Positions 3,501 through 57,635 of a stretch of 64,000 nucleotides of DNA are shown here, piece by piece; within the stretch, counting starts at the first letter, position 1; every line of letters starts with the position of its first letter. Source of the DNA: Phorcus lineatus (lineage: Eukaryota; Mollusca; Gastropoda; Trochida; Trochidae); the NCBI GenBank assembly GCA_921293015.1, contig OV121091.1:26582839-26646838 (forward strand). The letters are read 5' to 3'. The notes beneath the pieces were generated by a model. That model worked only from the letters and a program-made list of their open reading frames with translations. It searched no databases and was not told the DNA's origin. The position numbers were made by a program, and so were the translations under genes.

Positions 3501-6500
3501 GTATAATATAGGATAGAAATGTTCATTCTTATTTAGGGTGACATTTAAAATGATTTGATGTTTGATAACTGTATACTTAAAAAAATATTTAAGTATCATA
3601 CAAATTCTTGTAGAATTTATCATTTTTAACTGAACGTTGTATTTGACTGATGATATATATTGCAGGGTGGAATGACAGAGGAGACGAGAATGGCTCTTAG
3701 TTTGGCAGAGCTTGTTGAGCCTCCCATGAAGCCCTACCTCAACCCATTCCCACCCAAGGGGAAAGTCTATGACTACCGATTCCACAAGGAGGTATATTGA
3801 AACTTATTTTATGAAAAAGATGTTTCCTGATTGGCACCTTAACAATATAGCAATTGCAAAAATGGGTGCAAAATTTTAAAAGTTTTTTTTCTTCAAAGTC
3901 AGTAACAGAAAGTTATACTCAAAGTGATACATATGGTTAACTTGCTACTTAAACATTTAATTTTATGAACTTTTTGAAAGTTGTATTCTTAGTATGATTT
4001 AGAATTTGCTTTATAAAAAATTTACTCTGTTGTATTCATTGAAGACAAAAATTGAAATGATGAAAAAAAATATGGCCATATCTTACCGAAAGACTTTTAA
4101 AAAACTGTAGCTCAGTACTCATTATTCTAATTAGATATGGCAATATTAATTTTCCACGTAGAAATGTACAGAGAACATAAAGAGTTAAGATTGTTATCAT
4201 TATCTTATCTATATCAATTGTTCTCTCCATAGGGTTCTGGCAAGTGGGTACAGTGGAGCGAGGAGATGAAAGATGCTCCCCCGATCCCCAAGGACGCTCT
4301 CTTCAACGAGATCATTGTGCCTACCATCGACACCGTGCGCTACACCAACCTGATGGCTATGCTGCTCCAACACAGCAAACCCTGTCTCTTTGTTGGGCCC
4401 ACTGGTACCGGCAAGAGTTGCTACATCATTGTGAGTTAATTCTTCTTTTTTGATTTAGAGTTAGGGCAAAAAAAAACAATTTCAAGTATTTTAATCTTAT
4501 TTCAACTGACTTCTTTTACCAGATTGCATCTCTTCCAATAGAGTAAAATGGAACTCATCACTTTTGAAATATTTAAAATGAAAAAGAGGGACTTGTCTTT
4601 GATTTCATCTTCATATTCCTTAAATCTGATTCCGCGCTTTGTTGCAGGATTTCCTTTTGAACAAGCTGGACAAAGAGGTCTACAAACCAAACATCATCAA
4701 CTTCTCAGCCCAGACTAGCGCCAACCAGTCTCAGAACATCATCATGTCCAAACTAGACAGGCGTAGAAAGGGAGTGTACGGACCACCACTTGGCAAGAAA
4801 GCTGTGAGTGTTATGACTTGGTATCAGTATTGATTTCTATAAAAGAATGGTCTGTTTGTGAAGTTAATAGACAAACAAGGCATCTATATAGGGCAAACAA
4901 TGAACAGCACCAACTTTGCGGATTTGCTAAGTTTAAGACTTCCTAGGTTTGACTTGCTAACTTCAGCATTCCCTCTTACTTGTCATTGTTGAAAGTTAAG
5001 GAGTTGGTTTTATGTTAAATCCTCCATTTGACTATTCATTAAGGTAACACTGTAGAGCTTTGCAATTCTCTTAGGAAAAAGGTTTCCAATGTTTTTGATG
5101 TTTTTTCTCTCTTCAGATTGCATTTGTGGATGACTTGAACATGCCAATGCGAGAGACGTACGGAGCACAGCCCCCGATTGAGCTGCTGCGTCAGTGGCTT
5201 GACCACTGGAACTGGTATGACCTGAAGGAAGTCGTCCCAATAAAACTGGTTGACTTGCAGTTCATAGGGGCCATGGGACCACCTGGTAAATTGATCATTG
5301 GTTTACATTTGATATTTCACATATCTCTCATTTAGTCTACCCTTTGTCTAGGACTTCATCAAGACATAAACTTTATTATCACAGCATGACATCCAAATAC
5401 TAAGGCCCAAAATATGCATCCTTCTGCAATGTAGCTGCATTATGATTGTAACTATACAAAGGTTTTGATGAATGAATGAATGTGAACTTTGTACCTTGAA
5501 TTATATAGGTGGAGGTCGTAATCCTGTAACTCCACGATTCCTGCGCCACCTGAATACAATCACGATCAACGAGTTTGATGACGACAGCATGACCACCATC
5601 TTCAGGAACATAATGGATTGGCACATCTCTGCTAGGTTTGCATTTTGACATAATTCTATCAACATCAATCGCTCTATTCACTCATTCAATTCATTTTACA
5701 AGTCAAAGGTTATTTTGGAAGTGTTTCTTCTATGGTTTCAGATAGTATCTATAAATACTTATCTTTTAACATAAACTTATTTTATTTGTTTTCTTGTTTT
5801 GCTTATATGTTTATACCCTACCTGTCTCTACCTGTATTGCAGAGGGTTCAGTAACGAGTTCAAGCCATGTGTGGACCAGGTAGTTAGTGCTACCCTACAG
5901 GTGTACAAGGAAGCCATGGTGAACCTGCTGCCAACACCTGCCAAGTCTCACTACCTGTTCAACTTGCGAGACTTTGCTCGTGTCATGCAGGGCGTCCTCC
6001 TTTCAACACCTGACACCATGGAGGAACCTGCTTCCATGAAGAGGCTCTGGGTCCATGAGGTAACTGATACATCTTCAAAGGATTTGATAGAGATTTGGGG
6101 TCCTTGAACTAACATTTAAATACTTGATAAGATTTCCATCTCATAGTTTTCACCTTTACGCCGACGACACGCAACTCTATATTGCATTTCAACCTTCGAA
6201 CAATCAGTCAGTTATGGATTCTGTTATATCTATAGAGACCTGCATTGGTAGAATCAAATCTTGGATGACGTCACATTTCTTAAAACTGAATGGGGACAAA
6301 ACCGAATTTCTAGTTATCAGTCCGAAACGCCTCAAACAACCCATCTCTTTCCAAGCAATCAACATCGACGGTCACGTCATCACCCCCAGTCAGGAAGCTA
6401 GAAATCTGGGTGTAACGTTTGATTCGACCATGTCCATGGAATCCCATGTTAACACGGTTTGCAGGTCATCATATTTCCACCTACGCAACATCGGTCTCAT

Positions 6501-9500
6501 AAGGAAATATATAAACAGCAGTACCGCATCTGCCCTTGTCCGTGCGCTTGTTCTATCGCGAATAGACTACTGCAATGCACTATTGTATGGTCTTCCACAA
6601 CATACTGTCAGTTCACTACAGCGTGTTCAGAACATGGCTGCACGTGTCGTGTCTCGTACCAGACGGCGTGAACACATAACGCCAGTCTTGAAAGAGCTTC
6701 ATTGGCTTCCGGTGAAATACAGAATCCAATACAAAGTACTGTTGCTAGTTTATAAGTGTCTGAACAATCTTGCACCTGGATATCTCTCTAGCATGTTGGT
6801 AAAATACCAACCGAACAGAAGTCTGCGATCTGAAGATCAATGCTTCCTGAAACTACCTTCATCAAAATCTCGCACCTACGGCGATCGATCGTTCCAAATT
6901 GCTGGACCCTGCCTATGGAATAAACTACCCATTCAGTTGAGATCTGCTGAAGACCTGGTCTGCTTCAAGTCACATCTGAAGACTTGGTTATTCCAAGAAG
7001 CATTCCCTTCTAGTATGTGATTGAATGTGACTTTTCTTTGTAGCTTTACTCCAAGCGCTGCTGAGCAGTGACAATGTTGTTGGAATCAGCGCTATACAAA
7101 TGTTTTCATGTATGTATGTATGTATAAAAGCCATTATCATCGGCATGATATTGTTTCGATATGTGCTATGGAAGGGATCTTGGTCCACAGAGTATCAGAG
7201 TATACCAACAATTGTATTTGCATGGTATTGCTTTAAGGTGTTCCTTTATCTTTTCTTTATGGTATCTTGGATAAAACTCTCGTGTTTTTCATGAATAACA
7301 GGGTATACAAATTAGGCCAATAATTTCAGATTTGTTTTATAAAGACATTATGTCCTAAGAAAGATAGAAAAATAGATTCTTGTAAAAGGATGATGTTAGA
7401 TACCTACTCAATCCTGTAAATGTTCTTGCAGGTGTATAGAGTCTACTATGATCGTCTTGTGGATGATGGCGACAGGGACTGGCTCTTTAACTACTCTCGA
7501 GAAGTCATCAAGACCAAGATGCGAGAAGATTTTGACCAACTGTTTATACACTTGGACTCTGATAGTGATGGTAAAGTCACTGAGGATGATCTGCGCAGTT
7601 TAATCTATTGTGACTTTGCGGACCCTAAATCAGACAAGAAAGATTATGTAGAAGTGAGAGACTTGGAGCAACTGCGTCACGTTGTGGAGGGATACCTCGA
7701 CGAGTTTAATAACCTTAGTAAGAAGCCAATGAATCTTGTACTCTTCAGGTATGCACTTTCATATTTCCTTTGTCATTTTATGTTGCTGGAAAATAGAAAA
7801 TCCATTCATCCATCCAATCTATTTGCATCCTCCTTCATGAAAATAAAAACGATTTTGAAAAATTGTAAGTTTATCAAATTAATGAAATAAATAATGTCTT
7901 AAATGCACTTAGTTATTTTCATTAAAAAATCTTAAATAAGTGATGACTAAACTCAAAATTAAGATTAGAAATTCTGTTTAACTTTCGTTATCTATTGTAT
8001 TATTCGTAACCTATCAAGGATTTTGATCTCCAATACATTTTTTGATATTGCTTTCAGATTTGCCATTGAGCATGTATCCCGTATTGCGCGTATAATCAAA
8101 CAACCAAGAAGCCACGCCCTGTTGGTGGGAGTGGGAGGGTCAGGACGTCAGTCCCTCACCAGGCTCGCTGCACATATGGCCGACTACGATCTCTTCCAGG
8201 CAAGTAACATAGCAAACCATACTTCATATCCAACAGTTATCTGCCTTCCTTTTACTAAACACTACAAGATACTTAGTACTTAGTAACGTTTCCTTCAAGA
8301 TTTATTACATCTAATTTTAACATCATCTTAATGGAATCAAAATGAATAGATGTAAAAATGATATGATTTCTAAGCACTCATATTGTTGGAGACAAGAGGA
8401 TATATATAGTCTTGATGAAATTTCTTTGTAAAAGTGTGGTAAATATGTATATATTTAGAACAGGCACTGCGATATGGGTAGTATAGATCTGTGTTAAAGA
8501 ACATCAACCTGCCTGAATGATAGATTCAGATAGCTGGAGTTATACAATCAAAACCCAGATTGATAGATCACTGCTGTTGATATGCTCATGTTAAATAGAG
8601 ATACATGCTTGTTTTAGGTCCAATAGCTGCAAATGTAACAGTTGCATGTTGTGTATGACTGGCTGTTGTAAACCAAGGCTCCATTTAGAAACTCATATGT
8701 TATAAGTATTGTCATTATTAACCATTTTATAGTAATGTCGTAAAAAATATAATCTTTTTGTTTATTTTTATGCAAATGATTAATAATTTCAATTTTGAAA
8801 AACTGGAGTTTCTTTTTACGTCTCAAGAATATATATAAATATATGTTGCAATCTATTGCGCTTTTGTGTAAAAGCATCATTTCATTTGAATATCAACTGT
8901 TGTATTGAAATTAAATTTTTATGAAGATTATTATGACTGACAATTTTAAGATTATTTTATGTGATAGTTGGGTTAAGACTAAGTTTTTACATTTTATGTG
9001 TAATAAATGTAAACTTTGTCATTTTGCATATCACAGGTAGGTACTATGGCTGCGCAGGTAGAGTTTCGCAATCCTTCCACATCGTCTCAGTTATCTGCCC
9101 TTGGCACAGTTTGAAAATTGGCGCGCTGAGATTAAAGATTTGTTTTTAGGATTTTTTATACTCAAAACTATTCAACCCTGTTGTGCTTAAATATTATACA
9201 ACTGGTGACATGGACTTTAACTGTCAACATGCTCTATCAGTTACTCAAACAATCACAACATAGCCCATTGTCTTTTAAAGAGAGAGTAATGTCAACTTTT
9301 GGCCGCCATCTTTATGTATTGGCATTGGTGACAAAAAAATAAGTGAAACTTTTACAAATGTAGCAACAAAATTAAGGTAAAATGTATATATATTGAGAGA
9401 ATATCATCAAATCGAACGATGAATATCTTGATTTCTCAGTGTCTTTCTTTTTGAGTGAATGTGCGTTATTCTCTGTCAAATTGTAAAATCTAAGCAACCA

Positions 9501-30500: not shown

Positions 30501-33500
30501 TACCTGAATAAAGGTTTGAGGTGTGGGCTTTTTCCCAAATAAGATTGACAAAGCAACACTCTTTGCTGGTTGCTTTCCAGCTGATCCCATGATATATTGG
30601 CATTGATAAATTATTTGTAGTTCAATTTCAATTTTTATAAAGATTTAAAAGCAACTTAGAATATTGAAGAATGTTCATGCTCTAACTATTCTTGACATTA
30701 ATCAATATATATGTGTGTATTTATTATACTCCTTCAAAATTTGAAGGTGCTAGATTCCATGGCTGTAGAAATAGTAGCTCTCCATTAACTTGTATGTCCA
30801 GATTTATTTGAATATGTCAATAGCTATTCTTGAACATTTTCATTTTCATTAACAGTGTTTGAAGTTATATATTTTGATCGCTATAGATAATTCATATCAT
30901 TGATAACATCTATCTCTGTAATGTTTGGTCAACTAGGACACAAGTGTAAGTGACGGAGTGTGGCGGGTGTGAGGATTTCACTTGCATGAAATACACTTGA
31001 ATTGGGTGCAGACGTTATCAACTGCCTTTTCTTTTGAACATTCAAGCTTTATCCAGATATTGATTGAAATGTATAAACTATTGACAGTTATTTATTGAAA
31101 TCTACAAACTATTGGTGGTTATTTACTGAAATATATAAAAAAAAAATTGACGGTAATTTACTGAAATATACAAACTATTGAGGGTTATTCACTGAAATAT
31201 ATAAACTATTGACGGTTATTTATTAAAATATACAAACCATTGAGGGTTATTTACTGATATATACAAACTATTGACGGTTATTTACTGAAATATACAAACT
31301 ATTGACAGTTATTTACTGATATATACAAACTATTGCCTGGAGTATATCATGGTAATATTGACTGAAACATAAATTTTTTTGACTTTTTGCCGACAATTGT
31401 AACAATTGACTGCGATTTTATAGATGACTGAAATGAACAAGTTAACAACAGGCTTCTTACATTTTATGTTAAAGTATGGACAAATGACTTTATGATTAAA
31501 ATATGTTAGCTATTAAGGAAATAAAGCTTTTAATATCTAAGTTTTTTACTAAAATGATTCCACCTATCAGGAAGAGTTACAGGTAGTATAAACAGGACTA
31601 GCTAGAGGACAATGTGATTGAAATTCAAACCATGTTTGCTATGTATTCTGGATCTAACAGGTGTCAAGCCATGTCACACTGACATTCAGCTGTCTTCACT
31701 TTATTGTTTGATCCACAATACATGGTGATTTTGTTGTGTATTTCAGTCAGATTGAGCTAAAGGTATAATTGAGTTACATTGAATGAATATATGAATAGAA
31801 CATGCTTGGAAATATCATTTCATCTCACTTTCATTTATTGAGGTTCCACAATTTTTTATTATAATGAGAAATGGATTAAATATAAATGCAAATAAAGTTT
31901 CGGTTAAAGTGTATCTATTAGATTAAAATTTTTTTGAATGTTCATTTCTCATTAAATGAAAATCATTTATCTTCTTTATATCTACCTTATTTCTTTCAGG
32001 ACTTTTGCTTCTGTCTATAATAGTCTAGTATTTCAGTTACTGCCTAATTAAGAAACCTATGCATTGTAAAGTTTAAGCGGAATGACTTGATATTCTAGGT
32101 AACTGACAGTACTTATCTAGATTAAGATTTGAGTTTTAAAGATAAACCAAGGGGTATTTAATAGATGAAAATGAACTAAAACAGATTTTGTAAATAATGC
32201 TCATATGTATCCTTACAGATAAAATGTCACTGAGTACTTTGATTGTTAAAAACTTTCATTATTTTCTAAAAGTACTATTTAGCATTTGAATGAATTGAGT
32301 ATATTATCAAAAAATAATAGATAACAGATAAAACTTTCTCTTCTTTGCACTTGAATGTCTGGTATAGATTATAATGGTTGGAGAAAAGCATGTCTTTTCT
32401 TATTTAAATAAATTCGAACTTTAAGCATGTGATTTTAAGATCTGCATGAATTTTAAGAATGCATACTTTATTTTCGAATTGTTATTTACTTATTTCAAAC
32501 TTCATAAATTGTGTTAATTATTAGGTTAAAAGAAATTATGTGAAATGATTTAAAAACTTAATTCATAAAAATAAAATCTTGAAATGGTTGAAAAATAAAA
32601 AGTTTGCTAAAAAAATTAACTGGACATAAAATCATATCTATTCATGAATTATTAGCCCTCTATTTTAACAATACATTAAGATGTTCATCTGTTTTAAATT
32701 CTTGTATACTTCAAATCTATAATAAAAATACAACTTCTCCAGGCAAGAGCAACAGCAAAGGGAGGTAAATCAACTGATGACGTGGTGGATGAGGTTGCAG
32801 CTGATATTCTGTCTAAACTGCCGAGTAACTTCGACACAGATGCGGCACTGCGGAAGTACCCAACATCGTACAGCCAGAGCATGAACACAGTGCTGGTCCA
32901 GGAGATGGTGAGGTTTAACAGACTCCTCATCACCGTCCGATCATCTCTCATCAACATCAGGAAGGCCATCAAGGTGAGCTCAGGTTCCTCATGTAAAGTC
33001 ATTATTCTCTATGGTTAACTTGCTTGTGTGATAATTCATGCATTCCTCACATTACTTTATCATCAGTATTTGATAAGATTAAAGAAATCAGGGTTTTTTG
33101 TTTCGTTTTAAGAATCTATTTTTTAAATTGTAAAAAAAAATTGTTGTTGCATTCTGAAGAGGGTGACATCAGGATTTATTATTCCTATTTTAAGTTCAAT
33201 GCAGCTCTCCATCAGCTCTTGGATAAAAATGATAATTGAGGATATAAAAGTAATTTGTCTGAAAATGATAATAGATTGAATCAAAAAAAGTTTGGTTAAT
33301 CTTTATTTGCCTTTACTAAAACTGAATTTAGTACATCAGATTCAAATTAATATTTATATTGTAAATCAAATTAAAGAATTTCACCTTATTTTTTCTTTTA
33401 TCAATAAGCTGGGGATTGTTGAGTAAATAATGAATTAATATTTGAAACAAGTACCTGATGAACATTGAGTTGTAAGTATTTATAATCCTGTTCCTGATCT

Positions 33501-50839: not shown

Positions 50840-50898
50840 TTCTGATGACTACATGCGCCTCTTGAAGTACAATAAATAATACTATCAAGAACCAAAGA

Positions 50899-51873
50899 AT
50901 GGAAAGGCCTTCAGACGACAAAAACTCTTCTCAGTCGCCAAGCGATGAAAACATCGAACTTATACAAACTCAAACACACTCTCATCCTTCAACGGAAAGG
51001 CTGAGTACTTTAGATGAACAGAATGATATGGACAATGTTCCATCTACTTGTGAAGTTCAAGAAACTCCGTCTAAAGAAATATCCGAAATTGAATGTAAAA
51101 CAGAAGGTTCTGCAAATCAACACGGTAACCCTAAAACCGGTTCCGAAGTGAGATCAGAACAACCGAGTGAAGAAGGTTCTAAGGCAGAAGGCAACACGAC
51201 AGCATGTGCAAACCTTCCTCCGAACTCCAAAACTGCACCAAAGCAAAGGAGTGAGGAACTACCAAGCGAGGAAACGTCACACATAGAAGATAACATCAAC
51301 ACATCTGTTAGTCCATATCGAAATTCCCAAAAGGTAGGTGGAGATTTACAGCAAGAGGAGAAACCATCAACGGAGGAGAGCGTCTCAGAAGGAGTAGAAA
51401 ACAGGAAAATATCTTCAAATCCTCCCCAAAAGTCTGAAAAACAAAGAAAAGATTTTCCTCAAAAGAAAAGACAACCGTCAACAGAGGAAGACCTCATTGA
51501 AGGTCCTGATACCATACAATCACATCCAAATCCACCAAAAGTTCAGATGATGGAAAGAGAACCCGAAGTCCCAAAGCCTTCGTCTCACATCCCTCACATC
51601 CCGAGCACAAACATTGGTGTGGCCATACTTGTGACTGTTTGCTTCAACCTACCGTTCGGTGTTCTTGCAATGTACTTCTCTCTGATGGCGACCAAGGCCT
51701 TCAGGGACGGACATCTGAAGAAGGGAGAGAAGAAGGCACGAATATCAGTGTACATTAGTCTCTTCTCTATTGTCTTGACTGTTCTCATTGTAATGGCCAT
51801 TGTGTTGATGAAGGCTATGGAGGGTCAGTCAGGTAGGAGACGATACGCCACAAAAACCAGCGTCAGTCTCTAG
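50899..51873 (+). CDS. CD225/dispanin-domain membrane protein (324 aa)
   Basis: The C-terminal ~90 residues form a CD225 domain, the two-helix fold of the IFITM/dispanin family. Helix 1 is at about residues 239-266 (NIGVAILVTVCFNLPFGVLA) and helix 2 at about 282-306 (ISVYISLFSIVLTVLIVMAI), joined by a charged loop with KKGEKKARISV. A Cys in helix 1 (VTVCFN) lies where family members can be palmitoylated. Residues 1-230 are polar, rich in Ser, Glu, Pro and Lys and probably disordered, with about four loose 33-37-residue repeats ending PSEE or PSTEE. The start is the first ATG after an in-frame TGA (50,863-50,865). A probable 5'-UTR acceptor (atctttcag) is at 50,831-50,839. It is convergent with the paralogue at 55,348-56,703. 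The exact cellular role is not readable from the sequence; membrane trafficking or vesicle roles are family-based guesses. Confidence 0.88.
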   Translation: MERPSDDKNSSQSPSDENIELIQTQTHSHPSTERLSTLDEQNDMDNVPSTCEVQETPSKEISEIECKTEGSANQHGNPKTGSEVRSEQPSEEGSKAEGNTTACANLPPNSKTAPKQRSEELPSEETSHIEDNINTSVSPYRNSQKVGGDLQQEEKPSTEESVSEGVENRKISSNPPQKSEKQRKDFPQKKRQPSTEEDLIEGPDTIQSHPNPPKVQMMEREPEVPKPSSHIPHIPSTNIGVAILVTVCFNLPFGVLAMYFSLMATKAFRDGHLKKGEKKARISVYISLFSIVLTVLIVMAIVLMKAMEGQSGRRRYATKTSVSL

Positions 51874-52229
51874 CTGTTCTAATTGATACCAGTGTCCTAG
51901 AGGTCCGGTGATCGTAACTCAATGTTATAGCTATGGGCTAAGGGCACGCTTAGAACTAAGGAGGCTTTGTAATATTAGGGCCTGGTACATTTGTAAGAGC
52001 ACACAAGGTATTTACGTTTCATTTAAAATTGCCTGACTTTGAGAATAACTTTTTCAGTTAGATTTGATTTTTATCACAAAATTACAAACAAATGTCACGA
52101 TAACAGTGTACAGTTTGATGTTAATAATGGTGACCTTAAATGATCTGCTCTGATCTTTATCTGCCTGTTTGTGTTCAATTTGTGAATATTTTCGAAGGAA
52201 CGGTACGATCTGAGAAAATTTTAAAACTA

Positions 52230-52235
52230 ATTAAA
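52230..52235 (+). terminator. possible poly(A) signal ATTAAA of the CD225 gene (+)
   Basis: ATTAAA 357 bases after the stop, followed by T/G-containing sequence. It is the best candidate in the near 3' flank, unproven. Confidence 0.35.
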
Positions 52236-53105
52236 GAAAGTATTCTCGTTGTGGATTTATGCTGTTTATACTCATTACAATGACATTATAACATTTTGTT
52301 TAAAGGTATCCCTGTCGCACTAACGTTTTTCATTATGCCTTGCCATTATATTACGTTTTCTTTATAATTCGTGTTCATTCCATTATGATACATACGTTGC
52401 ATGCCTTGTGTATTCCATAGGTTGCTATTCATTAATGTGCGTTTGATATTGTTTTTTGAACAACAAGTGATAGCAGACTAAAATGCTGAAATTCCTGGTT
52501 TAATGTGATTCCAAATATATCAGTCTAGGTTTATCTAGAGAATGTGTCTTACAGGATTTACACACTCCCTCTTGGAGGTATTTCCACAATTGAAAACACC
52601 GCATGTGCCAAATTCTTGTTGTGTAAGTGATACATTGTGTATGTAAGAGATAAAAGATTACACTCTGGGTAACTGTGTTTGTTTTACTTTCATAAAGATC
52701 ATGTTTACCACAGGTATGGAATCACCATTTTCACTTTCATTTCTATTACATAAAGGTGTATACCGAAAGGTTGTTCACCTACTACTCAGCGCAACTATAA
52801 TGTAATTATGGTTCAGTTTGGACGTCAAAATAACTTCAGCAGAACGGACAAAGGATCACCCACTGTCCATGTGTAAAATAGCCATTCTTCAACTTATTTT
52901 GATAACGTCTTGTTTCTTTTTCGAAAATTTTGCAGAGTGAAATAGCCAGAATGGGTAATATTTTCGAAATTGCGATTAAATATTCTATATTTTGAAAAAA
53001 AAATCAATACAATCACATTGACTTAATGCAAAGGAACAAACATGATTTACGTTTAAAGCTGTTGCTCACTTACAAAGGATTTTGTAAATAAAAATAAAAA
53101 TTTGA

Positions 53106-53144
53106 ATTATTTACCCCTGGTCACTTCAATTACCTGCAAAAATT
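53106..53144 (-). repeat. dispersed inverted repeat, copy B
   Basis: On the - strand reads AATTTTTGCAGGTAATTGAA then GTGACCAGGGGT, matching copy A at 41,004-41,040, 12 kb away and in opposite orientation. Confidence 0.7.
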
Positions 53145-55347
53145 GTGACAGTTGACTGTTGGCTATTATAAACGATTTCGTTAAGGTACAATGGATCTTC
53201 ATATTGGTTTTGAAAATCAATCATCAATATATATATTATCAAAAATATACTATTATAAAACTAATGACTATCATCTCTATGCTTTCCAAGTATAGTGTTC
53301 TGTTATTATGATGTTATTGATTTTGGTTGAACCTCGCTATGTACTAAGAATTTCAGCTATTGTGAAAATCATAGTCATAATGCTATGGCAAACTTTCTTC
53401 GTGATGTCATGCCATGATATTCGTAAACTATTCCTGAAAACGGAATTTGACTGCAATCCATCTCCATTTGTTTTCCAAGCGATTGATAAATTCATTGCAA
53501 TTAAACGCCCTTTTCCGGCAGTTATACTAGTTGTTGTGATAAAAAGCGTGATAATAAAAAATACACACAAATATGCGAAAAGAATTAACAAACATGGAAA
53601 TCATTCATTATTTATTTCGTTGTAAGAGAGATATAACATTCACTGAAATCAGTCGCAAATACAAAGTTTCAAACTTTGTCAAAATTGTTAAAGAAAATAT
53701 TGTAGCTTCAATGAAAAAGGCACAAAGGGCTCGTAAGAAAACACAGCATTGACAGTTTTAACAAATGGCACTTATTTGCAAAAATATACACAAAATTAAT
53801 TTTCTTAATTCGACTTGTCTATTCTATGTATTCTTATATAGAAAATATCTTATATTTGTTATTATGGATTGAAATTAGAAAGCCTATAACTTGATGAAAA
53901 ACAGAAACATATTGATTGGCAAAGCAAGAATGTTGATGAAAAGTGTTAGAAATAGAGAAATAGGTACATGATTGGCTGACATTATTGTCTCAAACGTCAT
54001 ATAGTAGTTAATTCGATAGTTATGCATAATTCCACAGAAGCTTCAATAAAAACATTGACTCATTTATCTCCTTTCATTAATAGCAACGAATGTAATTGGA
54101 GAAAGAAGTCAAACATCCGGAAAGACTGAAAATATTAAGATGAAGAAGTGTCTTTCCTCTCTGGTGCCAAGGAACAACCGTTCTTGTTTCAAACTTGTGC
54201 TTTTGGAAATAAAATCGTCATCATGTTCTTGCTTGGCTTTGTATCAGGTTATTCCAAGGATAATGTTAAATGTAAGTCCATTGTTGAACATTCAGTTTGG
54301 TTAATATGAATCTAGGGATGAGATCGTTTAATGGAACTTCCTCTGATACAATTGATACCCAGAAAATAACTCGGATGACACTCAAGGATATAGACCCCAA
54401 ACACCACTAGTATATTGATAATGGCCGTCAAGAAACGACAAACTAGAAAAGTTACATTTTCACAGTCTGGGATGAAGTTTCCTTTAAGTACACGGTATTC
54501 CGCCCTTGGTGGAACTGAACGTTCACAATCAATGCATTGGTTTATTGTGTAGTTTAATAAACATGAATTGCTCATATATATTGAGTAAACTCATGAAAAA
54601 AATTGCTTTCCATTGTCACTTTTTGCATAGGATTCTATAGTAGCACTTCCGCCTGCGTTCAGGGTGCTGTATCAGCATTTCCGCCTATGATCGAAGTTTT
54701 TTTTTCATCATAAATTACACGTTGAAACTGTTTTGTGTAATTCCCTATCAACTCAAACATAATTGCATAGTTTTGCAGTAAACCAAATAAGCGGTCATAT
54801 GTGAAACGGGCATTAAACAACCCTTTCTTTCTAAAAAATGGCATAGATAACACTTTCTCTTAATATGACACTCTATTTGGCTCTGCGTAAAGTCAAATGA
54901 ATAACGTCAACTTCTACCATTTCTGACAGAGACGGGTTCAGATACTCGAATAGAAATATGGCATTTTATCACTCTGCAATACGCCTACGAACTACATGCA
55001 ATTGGGAAACATCTCGGCTGCCCAAGGATTGATGCTTCGATCTTAAAACTCTAATTCAACATCGAAATCACATAAGTCGCCATTCTATCATGTAATGAAA
55101 ATAGCCAATGAAGAAGCTATGAACTTACTAAGATTCTTTTTTTTATGACTAAGTCCAACGTAAGTGGCAACTTGAACCGTTTAAATGCTCATCAATTTGA
55201 GTATGAGCTTGCCTTATTATAACTTCAAAGGGTAATAACTATTTAAAACTTAGTGAAAAGAATCGAAGCTCTAAGCTTTAGGTGACCGAGAATCAGTGAC
55301 ATGCTAATAGTGGGAACAGAGTGAAGGCACGAACACAAAGTTCACGC

Positions 55348-56703
55348 TCACAGACGTACACCAGACTTGGAACCATACTCTCGTTGTCTAGCCTGTCCCT
55401 CTATAGCTTTATACAGCACTACAGCCATCACAATAAGAACCGTCAACACGATGGAGAAGAGGCTGATGTAGATAGATATCCTTGCCTTTTTTGCACCTCT
55501 AACTTTATCACCGTCTCTGTATGCCTTAGTAGCCATAAGGGAGAAGTAAACAGCTAGGCAACCAAGGGGTAGGTTGAAGCACACAGTCACCAACAAGGCC
55601 ACAGCTATATTTGTATTTGGAATATATGGAACATCCAGTTGTTGAGCTCTGAAATTGGTATCAGCATTCTTAGGATCAGGAGATTTTAAGAATGGTGCTT
55701 CGATATCACCACCCGACTCTCTGGAAGTACTGGGCCCAGAGGTTCCTGGCTTAAAGCAGGAGGTATCTCTGTTATCTGCTTTGGAAGGAGCTAGAGGAAG
55801 TGCAGTTGGGGAGGAAGATCCTGATGCTCCGTCTGGCTCCCTGAGTTCCCTTCTGTTGGCCACAGCGCCTTCCGGACTAGCTGTGAGTCCGCCGTCTCTG
55901 AATGATGCTGAAGGCTCGTTATACCCAGCTGCATACTCTGACATCCCATCCGTGTGTTCACCGACTCCGGCTGGATCTGTCGTATATGGAGGGTCTAGAG
56001 ATGGACTCGGCACATACGGACCTGTGGGTACGACGTCTCGCTCCGGAGTGTCGTACCCATCATCGCATCTACTTGACATTGTGTGTTTGTTGTTTGCAAA
56101 AGTTCCACTGTAGACTAACAGTTTGTGATTGCTTGGATTTGGTTGGGTATTCACTACAGAATTGTTAGTCACGGAAAGAGGGATAGATCGTGTAACACTT
56201 GTGTTATCCGCAATAAACTTATCCCTTAGTTTTTGTATGGGAGAAGAGCTAGCTTTAGGACTCTGTTTAGGATGTTTGTCAAAATGACCTTTTTTTGGAT
56301 AAACCTTTGCACCGGATTTAGATTTGCCAGTTCTTTTGAGAGAAACCTTGGGGGAGGACTCAGTCGAAAGACTTAGATTTTGAGCAACAGTTGATCGGAA
56401 TGCTTCTTCGTCCTTCTCTCGGGACCGACTCCTAGGGGAGCTGCTTCGTCTGGAGCCGTCAAAGGTTACCCTGCTTCCTCGGGCCCTCGGGGATCTTCGT
56501 ACTCCCGGACTGTCTCTTGGGGATGTCCGTAAACCGGGACTGTCTCTCGGGGATTTCCGTACCCCAGGACTATCTTTTGAAGAATTCTGAGATCCGGGAC
56601 TCTCTCTGGGGGATCTTCGTATTCCAGGACTGTCTCTGGGGATGTGCGTCCTGTACACAGGTGGGAGACTGGCTGAACCTGCTGATACCGAGGAATGGTT
56701 CAT
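55348..56703 (-). CDS. CD225/dispanin-domain membrane protein with SP-rich repeats (451 aa)
   Basis: Paralogue of the 324-aa gene facing it. The CD225 domain occupies about residues 360-451: helix 1 at 366-391 (NIAVALLVTVCFNLPLGCLA), a basic loop, and helix 2 at 409-431 (ISIYISLFSIVLTVLIVMAV). The N-terminal 350 residues are probably disordered. Residues 24-73 are five perfect-length decapeptides of the form DSPGxRxSPR, followed by an Arg/Ser-rich stretch (RRSSSPRSRSREKDEE) and a basic Lys/Pro region. Such SP sites suit proline-directed kinases (inference). The start is fixed by an in-frame TGA at 56,725-56,727. A 7-codon upstream ORF overlaps the ATG, and a likely 5'-UTR acceptor (aacttcag on the - strand) puts the exon start at 56,746. 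The C-terminus is GVRL. The exact family member is not assignable; PRRT- and IFITM-type relatives share the fold. Confidence 0.9.
   Translation of the reverse strand: MNHSSVSAGSASLPPVYRTHIPRDSPGIRRSPRESPGSQNSSKDSPGVRKSPRDSPGLRTSPRDSPGVRRSPRARGSRVTFDGSRRSSSPRSRSREKDEEAFRSTVAQNLSLSTESSPKVSLKRTGKSKSGAKVYPKKGHFDKHPKQSPKASSSPIQKLRDKFIADNTSVTRSIPLSVTNNSVVNTQPNPSNHKLLVYSGTFANNKHTMSSRCDDGYDTPERDVVPTGPYVPSPSLDPPYTTDPAGVGEHTDGMSEYAAGYNEPSASFRDGGLTASPEGAVANRRELREPDGASGSSSPTALPLAPSKADNRDTSCFKPGTSGPSTSRESGGDIEAPFLKSPDPKNADTNFRAQQLDVPYIPNTNIAVALLVTVCFNLPLGCLAVYFSLMATKAYRDGDKVRGAKKARISIYISLFSIVLTVLIVMAVVLYKAIEGQARQREYGSKSGVRL
56485..56634 (-). repeat. in-frame 30-bp coding minisatellite (5 units, DSPGxRxSPR)
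   Basis: 150 bp = 5 x 30 bp encoding residues 24-73. Unit 2 is the most diverged (ESPGSQNSSK). The others keep SP pairs and the Arg after Gly-x. Confidence 0.9.
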
Positions 56704-56723
56704 TCCTTCATCTTCATCTTCAT
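56700..56723 (-). promoter_or_regulatory. upstream ORF overlapping the CD225 start codon
   Basis: ATG at 56,723 (with further in-frame ATGs at 56,717 and 56,711) encodes MKMKMKE and stops at a TGA that overlaps the main start as ATGA. Such an arrangement can lower or re-route initiation (reinitiation). It holds only if the exon starts at 56,746 as inferred. Confidence 0.55.
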
Positions 56724-56746: not shown

Positions 56747-57635
56747 CTGAAGTTAAAGGGAAAACACTAGTGAATCAATTACAAAGATATCAACGCAATA
56801 GAATACAACGCTGATCGAATAAGTTGTTACAAGGTAAAACATGTCACAGATGGTGGTTCAAACGACGTCAAGGCTACATGACAATATTCCAGTTTTATAT
56901 CTTGTGATATAGCTCTGTAAACTTTGTAAATGCCAGGCACTTTGCTATTTGAACATACTTTTGATGAGATATTGTCTAGAATACCGCGTGGAGTGTGACC
57001 GAATGACTCAAACGTAATTTTGGAAACCTATTTTCAGCAGACAAAGAGACAAACATAGATTGATATTGTTAAGTAGGTCTTTTAACTAATGCGCGTGTTG
57101 ATAAGACACAGAGTGTCATATTATCAATGAAAACAAGAAAATATCATAATATTTGCATTTAAGAGAAAAAGATGCACGTTTTGGGAGGCGATTCTGTAAA
57201 ACGTTTCTGAATCATTATCCAGTACATAAATATTTAGTACAAAAGTGAAAATCATTTGCTGGTTCTTATAACTGCAATACAAAATAACCCTACTAAGCAG
57301 CTATAACCATGTTAATGGAGTTCTAAACAAGTTCATGATGTGAACATACAGAAAGACTATTAAAAACATTGTTTAGTGCGACACAGAGTCATACGACTTT
57401 GGGAATTAATGTGATACCAGCGTGAAATAAATTTGTACGACTCATTAATTTTTTACGCTTACATGTATGAGGTTTAAAAAATTAATTATCAATCAAATTT
57501 TTAACAATTTGCAAAGAACAAAAACACATTCAATTCTTCCGTACGGAGTCTCAAGTGAAAGTTAAGAACTTAAAGTAGAGGATTTGATAGTGAACGTTCT
57601 ACCCGCATACGGTGCAATGCAATGCACGTGAACCA
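56747..57635. other. 5' flank or intron of the - strand CD225 gene
   Basis: AT-rich sequence without open frames of note. It probably includes part of the 5'-UTR intron. No promoter could be identified. Confidence 0.5.

Follow-up and report, generated by a model that had tools for sequence, protein, structure and literature searches.

Dispanins, the proteins that carry a CD225 membrane domain, contribute to defence against viruses, to release at synapses and to the trafficking of receptors, and the roles of their tails are hard to separate from those of the membrane module. The locus analysed here raises this question in Phorcus lineatus: how did two neighbouring genes, A and B, come to join closely similar CD225 domains to wholly different N-terminal tails, and what might the resulting proteins do? 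The window, i.e. the whole stretch of 64,000 nucleotides, corresponds to G000:C17:26582839-26646838 in an assembly of 957.8 Mb and 74 contigs.

Gene organization and reading frames

50899..51873, forward strand: gene A, single coding exon, open reading frame of 324 aa; CD225 match of 37.8 bits
55348..56703, reverse strand: gene B, single coding exon, open reading frame of 451 aa; CD225 match of 34.9 bits
50822..50839, forward strand: probable 3' splice site of a leader intron of A, 59 nt 5' of the ATG; 13 of 15 pyrimidines followed by CAG
56747..56764, reverse strand: probable 3' splice site of a leader intron of B, 43 nt 5' of the ATG

Each gene is one unbroken reading frame, starting at the ATG at 50899 (+) for A and at 56703 (-) for B, and the two converge with 3,474 bases from stop to stop, so that the original prediction of a convergent neighbouring pair was exact in its coordinates. 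The open runs span 335 (A) and 458 (B) codons, whereas no run in 200 Markov shuffles of the 8 kb exceeded 191 codons; these reading frames are not chance products. Between its putative splice site and its ATG, gene A has two short upstream ORFs (50845-50865 and 50853-50879, +). Directly 5' of B, a tiny ORF at 56700-56723 (-) consists of ATG AAG three times followed by GAA TGA, and its stop overlaps the ATG of B (ATGA), an arrangement that can permit re-initiation.

The shared CD225 domain and its hallmarks

51601..51798, forward strand: CD225 domain of A, contiguous, its two hydrophobic segments not separated by an intron
55423..55620, reverse strand: CD225 domain of B, contiguous

That both proteins belong to the CD225 family, as had been proposed, was confirmed by a profile search with PF04505 (Pfam CD225, cut-off 27.1 bits), which exceeded the cut-off over residues 235-300 of A and 362-427 of B. 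The predicted close similarity of the two domains also holds, with 66 of the 91 C-terminal residues identical and 184 of 276 nt identical at the DNA level, stop codon included. When the DNA of A and B was compared, each gene extended by some 4 kb of flanking sequence, the sole match better than E 1.7 comprised 51607-51828 and its partner. The hydrophobic segments occupy residues 237-263 and 279-310 in A and 364-392 and 406-438 in B, and are followed by 14 and 13 residues, respectively, slightly above the 'under 10' given in the paper that defines dispanins (PMC3282796).

A profile of the five C17 domains searched against the PDB recovered PRRT1/SynDIG4 first, at E 1.1e-6, among seven matches at E <= 1, the next standing at 0.004; the domain of A alone again placed PRRT1 first (E 0.039). 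AlphaFold rendered a 94-residue piece of A as two helices (6-39 and 43-88) in a weak model (mean pLDDT 68.4, pTM 0.45, two sequences) from which a spanning first helix cannot be told from a re-entrant one, and the fold matches of this model are generic.

Most of the listed family hallmarks have been lost. Helix 1 of A and B carries a single Cys (VCFN), whereas adjacent Cys residues occur in six of the ten split-domain genes in the comparison; the Asp flanking this helix, a eukaryotic hallmark kept in six of the ten, is Thr in both proteins. In the loop, the G-D motif reads GD in B and GH in A (D in 9/10 split-domain genes), and the A-x6-A motif, each Ala of which is found in 9/10, has G and S in both. 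The helix-2 Gly, present in nine of the ten and in the other six one-exon genes, is absent from A and B. Their closest relatives are intermediate, as the helix-2 Gly is present in L010a, L010b and L011, and the SNARE-like central arginine and one Ala in L011. Both proteins read CFNLP, which is neither CCFWP nor CFCPMWP, described as the SynDIG1/4 and PRRT2 motifs, respectively (PMC8195862). A and B remain members of the family although most of the listed hallmarks are gone, among them the arginine proposed for SNARE mimicry and the conserved intron; undoubted dispanins can therefore fall outside the published list of hallmarks.

The arginine bears on one alternative, namely mimicry of an R-SNARE by the CD225 domain itself, an idea put forward for PRRT2 and IFITM3. 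An R-SNARE-like motif in CD225 has indeed been reported, by a source that also describes part of the family as lacking the SNARE-like arginine (PMC11730294); in A and B this central residue is Thr, while 6/10 split-domain genes retain the arginine, and we regard such mimicry by the pair as very improbable.

Origin and age of the pair

Searched against the whole assembly, the domain of A gave seven matches at E <= 10, comprising A itself, B (71%) and five at <=33%, four of them on the same contig (32-33%; three full-domain genes and one partial) and one, insignificant, on C9. A first tree held 19 rows (eight one-exon genes, ten split genes joined by hand and PRRT1 from the PDB); in a second, one joined row was revised and one gene added. 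In both trees, which cover the CD225 domains of this genome and PRRT1, A and B are sisters with support of 99/98, nested in a small clade with L010a, L010b and L011 (95/98 in the first tree, 95/96 in the second) that is confined to one chromosome, C17. The sister grouping indicates that the pair arose by duplication, in agreement with the original prediction and not with two separate old families. A third, partial copy of a short-tailed C17 CD225 gene, at L010:231-446 (-), is near-identical to the L010a domain. The one-exon CD225 genes L012, L013 and L014, located on C11 and C9, are very divergent, with approximately 84-160 residues before the hydrophobic part, and in the tree L012 and L014 sit on very long branches.

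Silent divergence indicates that the duplication is old. Over 94 aa, A and B differ with pS 0.84 and pN 0.18; in the shared domain 22 of 34 fourfold sites differ, which is near saturation. Where the two proteins share a residue, 35 of 63 codons have changed silently; the corresponding figure for the L010 pair is 17 of 72. With silent sites near saturation, the tails have had a long time to part; the rapid and perhaps adaptive tail divergence suggested in the original prediction stays conjectural.

Helix 2 has nevertheless barely changed. Between A and B, 23 of its 26 residues are identical, yet 13 of those 23 codons carry silent changes, which points to selection and rules out gene conversion as the source of the identity. 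In the L010 pair, the sole control pair, 15 of 26 helix-2 residues differ despite fewer silent changes (Fisher p 0.001), and the stretch ahead of the domain is nearly unchanged.

Such conservation has to be set against a further reading. IFITM3, a dispanin of subfamily A that shares the CD225 domain with A and B, is a short protein with a double Cys, R85 and G95, the latter two being needed for SNARE binding and antiviral action. With IFITMs the best-known members of the family, A and B could likewise be antiviral restriction factors whose tails diverged in conflict with pathogens, and the domain itself would fit. With the R85 column set by the PRRT1 alignment together with what we take to be the IFITM3 sequence, A and B lack the double Cys and carry Thr at the R85 equivalent and Lys or Arg at the G95 equivalent. 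The age of the duplication and the conserved domain also speak against this role, and the sole CD225 protein matched in the PDB was PRRT1, although the PDB may contain no IFITM domain. In the mollusc Aplysia, ten IFITM/dispanin-domain proteins are listed among antiviral genes via IPR007593 (PMC9334734), and even so we hold an antiviral function of A and B to be improbable.

A domain encoded in one exon

The CD225 family search of the genome returned at least 27 matches. When 27 of them were read in their loci, eight had the domain in one ORF, 15 were first halves and four were second halves, the match at C37:7956179, which scored from position 10, being nevertheless assigned to the second halves. 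In the DNA, a GT at one and the same codon closes all 15 first halves examined, and each of the 12 second halves examined directly follows CAG. This agrees with the published description of dispanins as split between the helices, in a survey that names only a Schistosoma mansoni dispanin and mouse Dspa2f as missing the splice site (PMC3282796); vertebrate IFITM genes likewise have two exons (PMC3499546). The clade of A and B therefore lacks the intron that divides nearly all dispanins, a trait that it shares with the Schistosoma and mouse exceptions.

How often the one-exon state arose depends on the tree. The first requires three changes, and 0% of its 200 bootstrap trees get by with one; the second requires two, and 10% of bootstrap trees get by with one. 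A single origin among the eight genes, judged from these sequences, is thus neither shown nor excluded. Upstream of the coding exon, a strong acceptor (>=12/15 pyrimidines) lies 14-77 nt 5' of the chosen ATG in all five C17 clade members tested (a sixth C17 place, L034, is partial), whereas an acceptor of >=12/15 within 80 nt accompanies 151 of 2,935 ATGs of the window. Acceptors near the ATG of L012-L014 are weaker (9-10/15 pyrimidines, within 1-27 nt). The plan of the clade is therefore likely to be a non-coding first exon followed by one coding exon.

Divergent tails with unrelated repeats

50899..51597, forward strand: tail A, 233 aa, net charge -19, low hydropathy, predicted to be disordered by the charge-hydropathy rule
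51100..51516, forward strand: four clear degenerate repeats with a PS(T/E)E core, approximately 33-37 residues each, from gapped self-alignment
55624..56703, reverse strand: tail B, 360 aa, Ser/Pro/Arg-rich, with a basic N-terminal half, predicted to be disordered by the same rule
56491..56640, reverse strand: five tandem decapeptides, mostly PRDSPG(V/I/L)R.S, residues 22-71; TRF array with a 30-bp unit at 56489-56643

The two tails are unrelated, as had been claimed, blastp giving nothing better than E 3.1 between them. Neither tail matched the N-termini of the remaining six one-exon CD225 genes at E <= 1, and tail A used as a genome query matched its own locus alone at that threshold.

Tail A was described in the original prediction as acidic with repeats of about 35 residues, and both traits were recovered. 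Its repeat cores begin at residues 89, 122, 156 and 193, a spacing of 33-37, and the gapped self-alignment scores 164, a value reached in none of 150 shuffles (mean 66.6, sd 11.1, max 107). The best ungapped self-match score was equalled in 5 of 500 shuffles; the repeats are real once gaps are permitted. Their cores differ with pS 0.84 and pN 0.49, little sign of constraint.

Tail B has a net charge of +15, rising to +24 over its first 190 residues, and contains 18 S/T-P sites where 9.3 are expected, a number reached in about 0.1% of 1,000 shuffles. Its decapeptides, also anticipated, give a self-match of 146 against a maximum of 66 among 500 shuffles of the tail (0/500), and silent differences between the units (pS 0.50) outweigh those that alter the residue (pN 0.18). 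A single PPxY motif, expected by chance in 11% of shuffles, is present in B and is also known in IFITM3. In the genome, tail B matched its own locus and gave 17 weak matches, the latter to the repeat part alone. At C9:16847901-16849295 (L041-L043), a 493-aa open frame contains tandem matches weakly resembling the B decapeptide (E 0.28-0.88).

The original prediction also held tails of 230-350 residues to be unusual for the family. This view is not supported: the dispanin N-terminus is described as often exceeding 100 aa (PMC3282796), and a large N terminus is counted among the traits that members share (PMC4813553). PRRT2 and PRRT1/SynDIG4 are examples of such long tails. Within this genome, the closest relatives of A and B have just ~53-60 residues ahead of the hydrophobic part. 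These short N-termini, the dissimilarity of the tails to each other and to the six other one-exon proteins, and the pS and pN of the A repeat cores are what would be expected if the tails were unconstrained linkers drifting neutrally beside a membrane domain that alone matters. Frames kept open across 233 and 360 codons, decapeptides of B that vary mainly at silent sites and S/T-P sites at twice their expectation argue the other way, and we judge neutral drift to be rather unlikely.

A putative pair of membrane adaptors

The reading that we favour, with some reserve, is that A and B are old convergent duplicates of a dispanin subfamily with one coding exon and would serve as membrane adaptors of the PRRT2/SynDIG4 type in trafficking. 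The first hydrophobic segment would dip into the membrane and the second would span it, leaving the short C-terminus outside and the long, disordered N-terminal tail in the cytosol, as in PRRT2 and SynDIG4/PRRT1. In its solved form SynDIG4 has a re-entrant H1a-H1b and one spanning helix, H2 (PMC13262616), and PRRT2 has an Ncyt/Cexo topology (PMC4813553). The near-frozen helix 2 suggests that A and B share an intramembrane partner or a self-contact. Their unrelated tails, acidic and repeat-bearing in A and basic in B, may recruit or block different cytosolic partners; the Ser-Pro-rich tail B would probably be tuned by proline-directed kinases, and the process served is most likely vesicle or receptor trafficking.

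PRRT2 (dispanin B3) resembles A and B in carrying a long N-terminal tail on a C-terminal CD225 module. Its proline-rich tail is described as the effector, being cytosolic and binding SH3 domains (PMC4813553) and, when held at the membrane, blocking SNARE assembly (PMC5792450). Dispanin B genes, in contrast, are reported to consist of two exons whose boundary falls within the domain and to encode a C-F-C motif (PMC3282796), whereas A and B have a one-exon domain and one Cys of the motif. They also lack the SNARE-like arginine, and enrichment of PxxP and SH3-ligand motifs was not found in tail A or tail B, which suggests partners different from those of PRRT2. PRRT1/SynDIG4 (dispanin D1), a 306-aa chain that ends in the domain, is by sequence the nearest protein of solved structure; A and B differ from it in lacking CCFWP, the helix-2 Gly and the intron, the comparison being one of the domains.

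A bolder version would make A and B halves of one device, a mixed complex of A with B formed through the nearly identical surfaces of helix 2, in which the oppositely charged tails, acidic in A and basic and phosphorylatable in B, pair in the cytosol as a kinase-controlled membrane switch. This would explain the frozen helix 2, the complementary tails and the fact that the genes stayed neighbours; we consider it highly speculative and would give it little credence.

A and B represent a modest, fairly derived form of the known dispanin family (IFITM/PRRT2), noteworthy for the derived one-exon subfamily, the frozen helix 2 and the wholly different tails. Open-licence literature on the dispanin family and its invertebrate members, at the level of titles and the openings of abstracts, does not describe the pair. 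The two genes amount to a natural tail-swap for assigning activities to the tail or to the membrane module.

Other features of the window

Dynein heavy chain exons extend over approximately 5.8-34.9 kb (+), with Pfam matches to the AAA lid, stalk, AAA_lid_11 and Dynein_C. Inside this gene, 6094-7017 (+) is a probable remnant of a reverse transcriptase ORF, which matches RVT_1 with 23.1 bits (E 7e-5) and so falls short of the 29.6-bit cut-off. Two tandem arrays are also present, one at 31058-31335 (31-bp unit, 8.8 copies, 82% match) and one at 1040-1188 (74-bp unit, 2.0 copies, 96% match).
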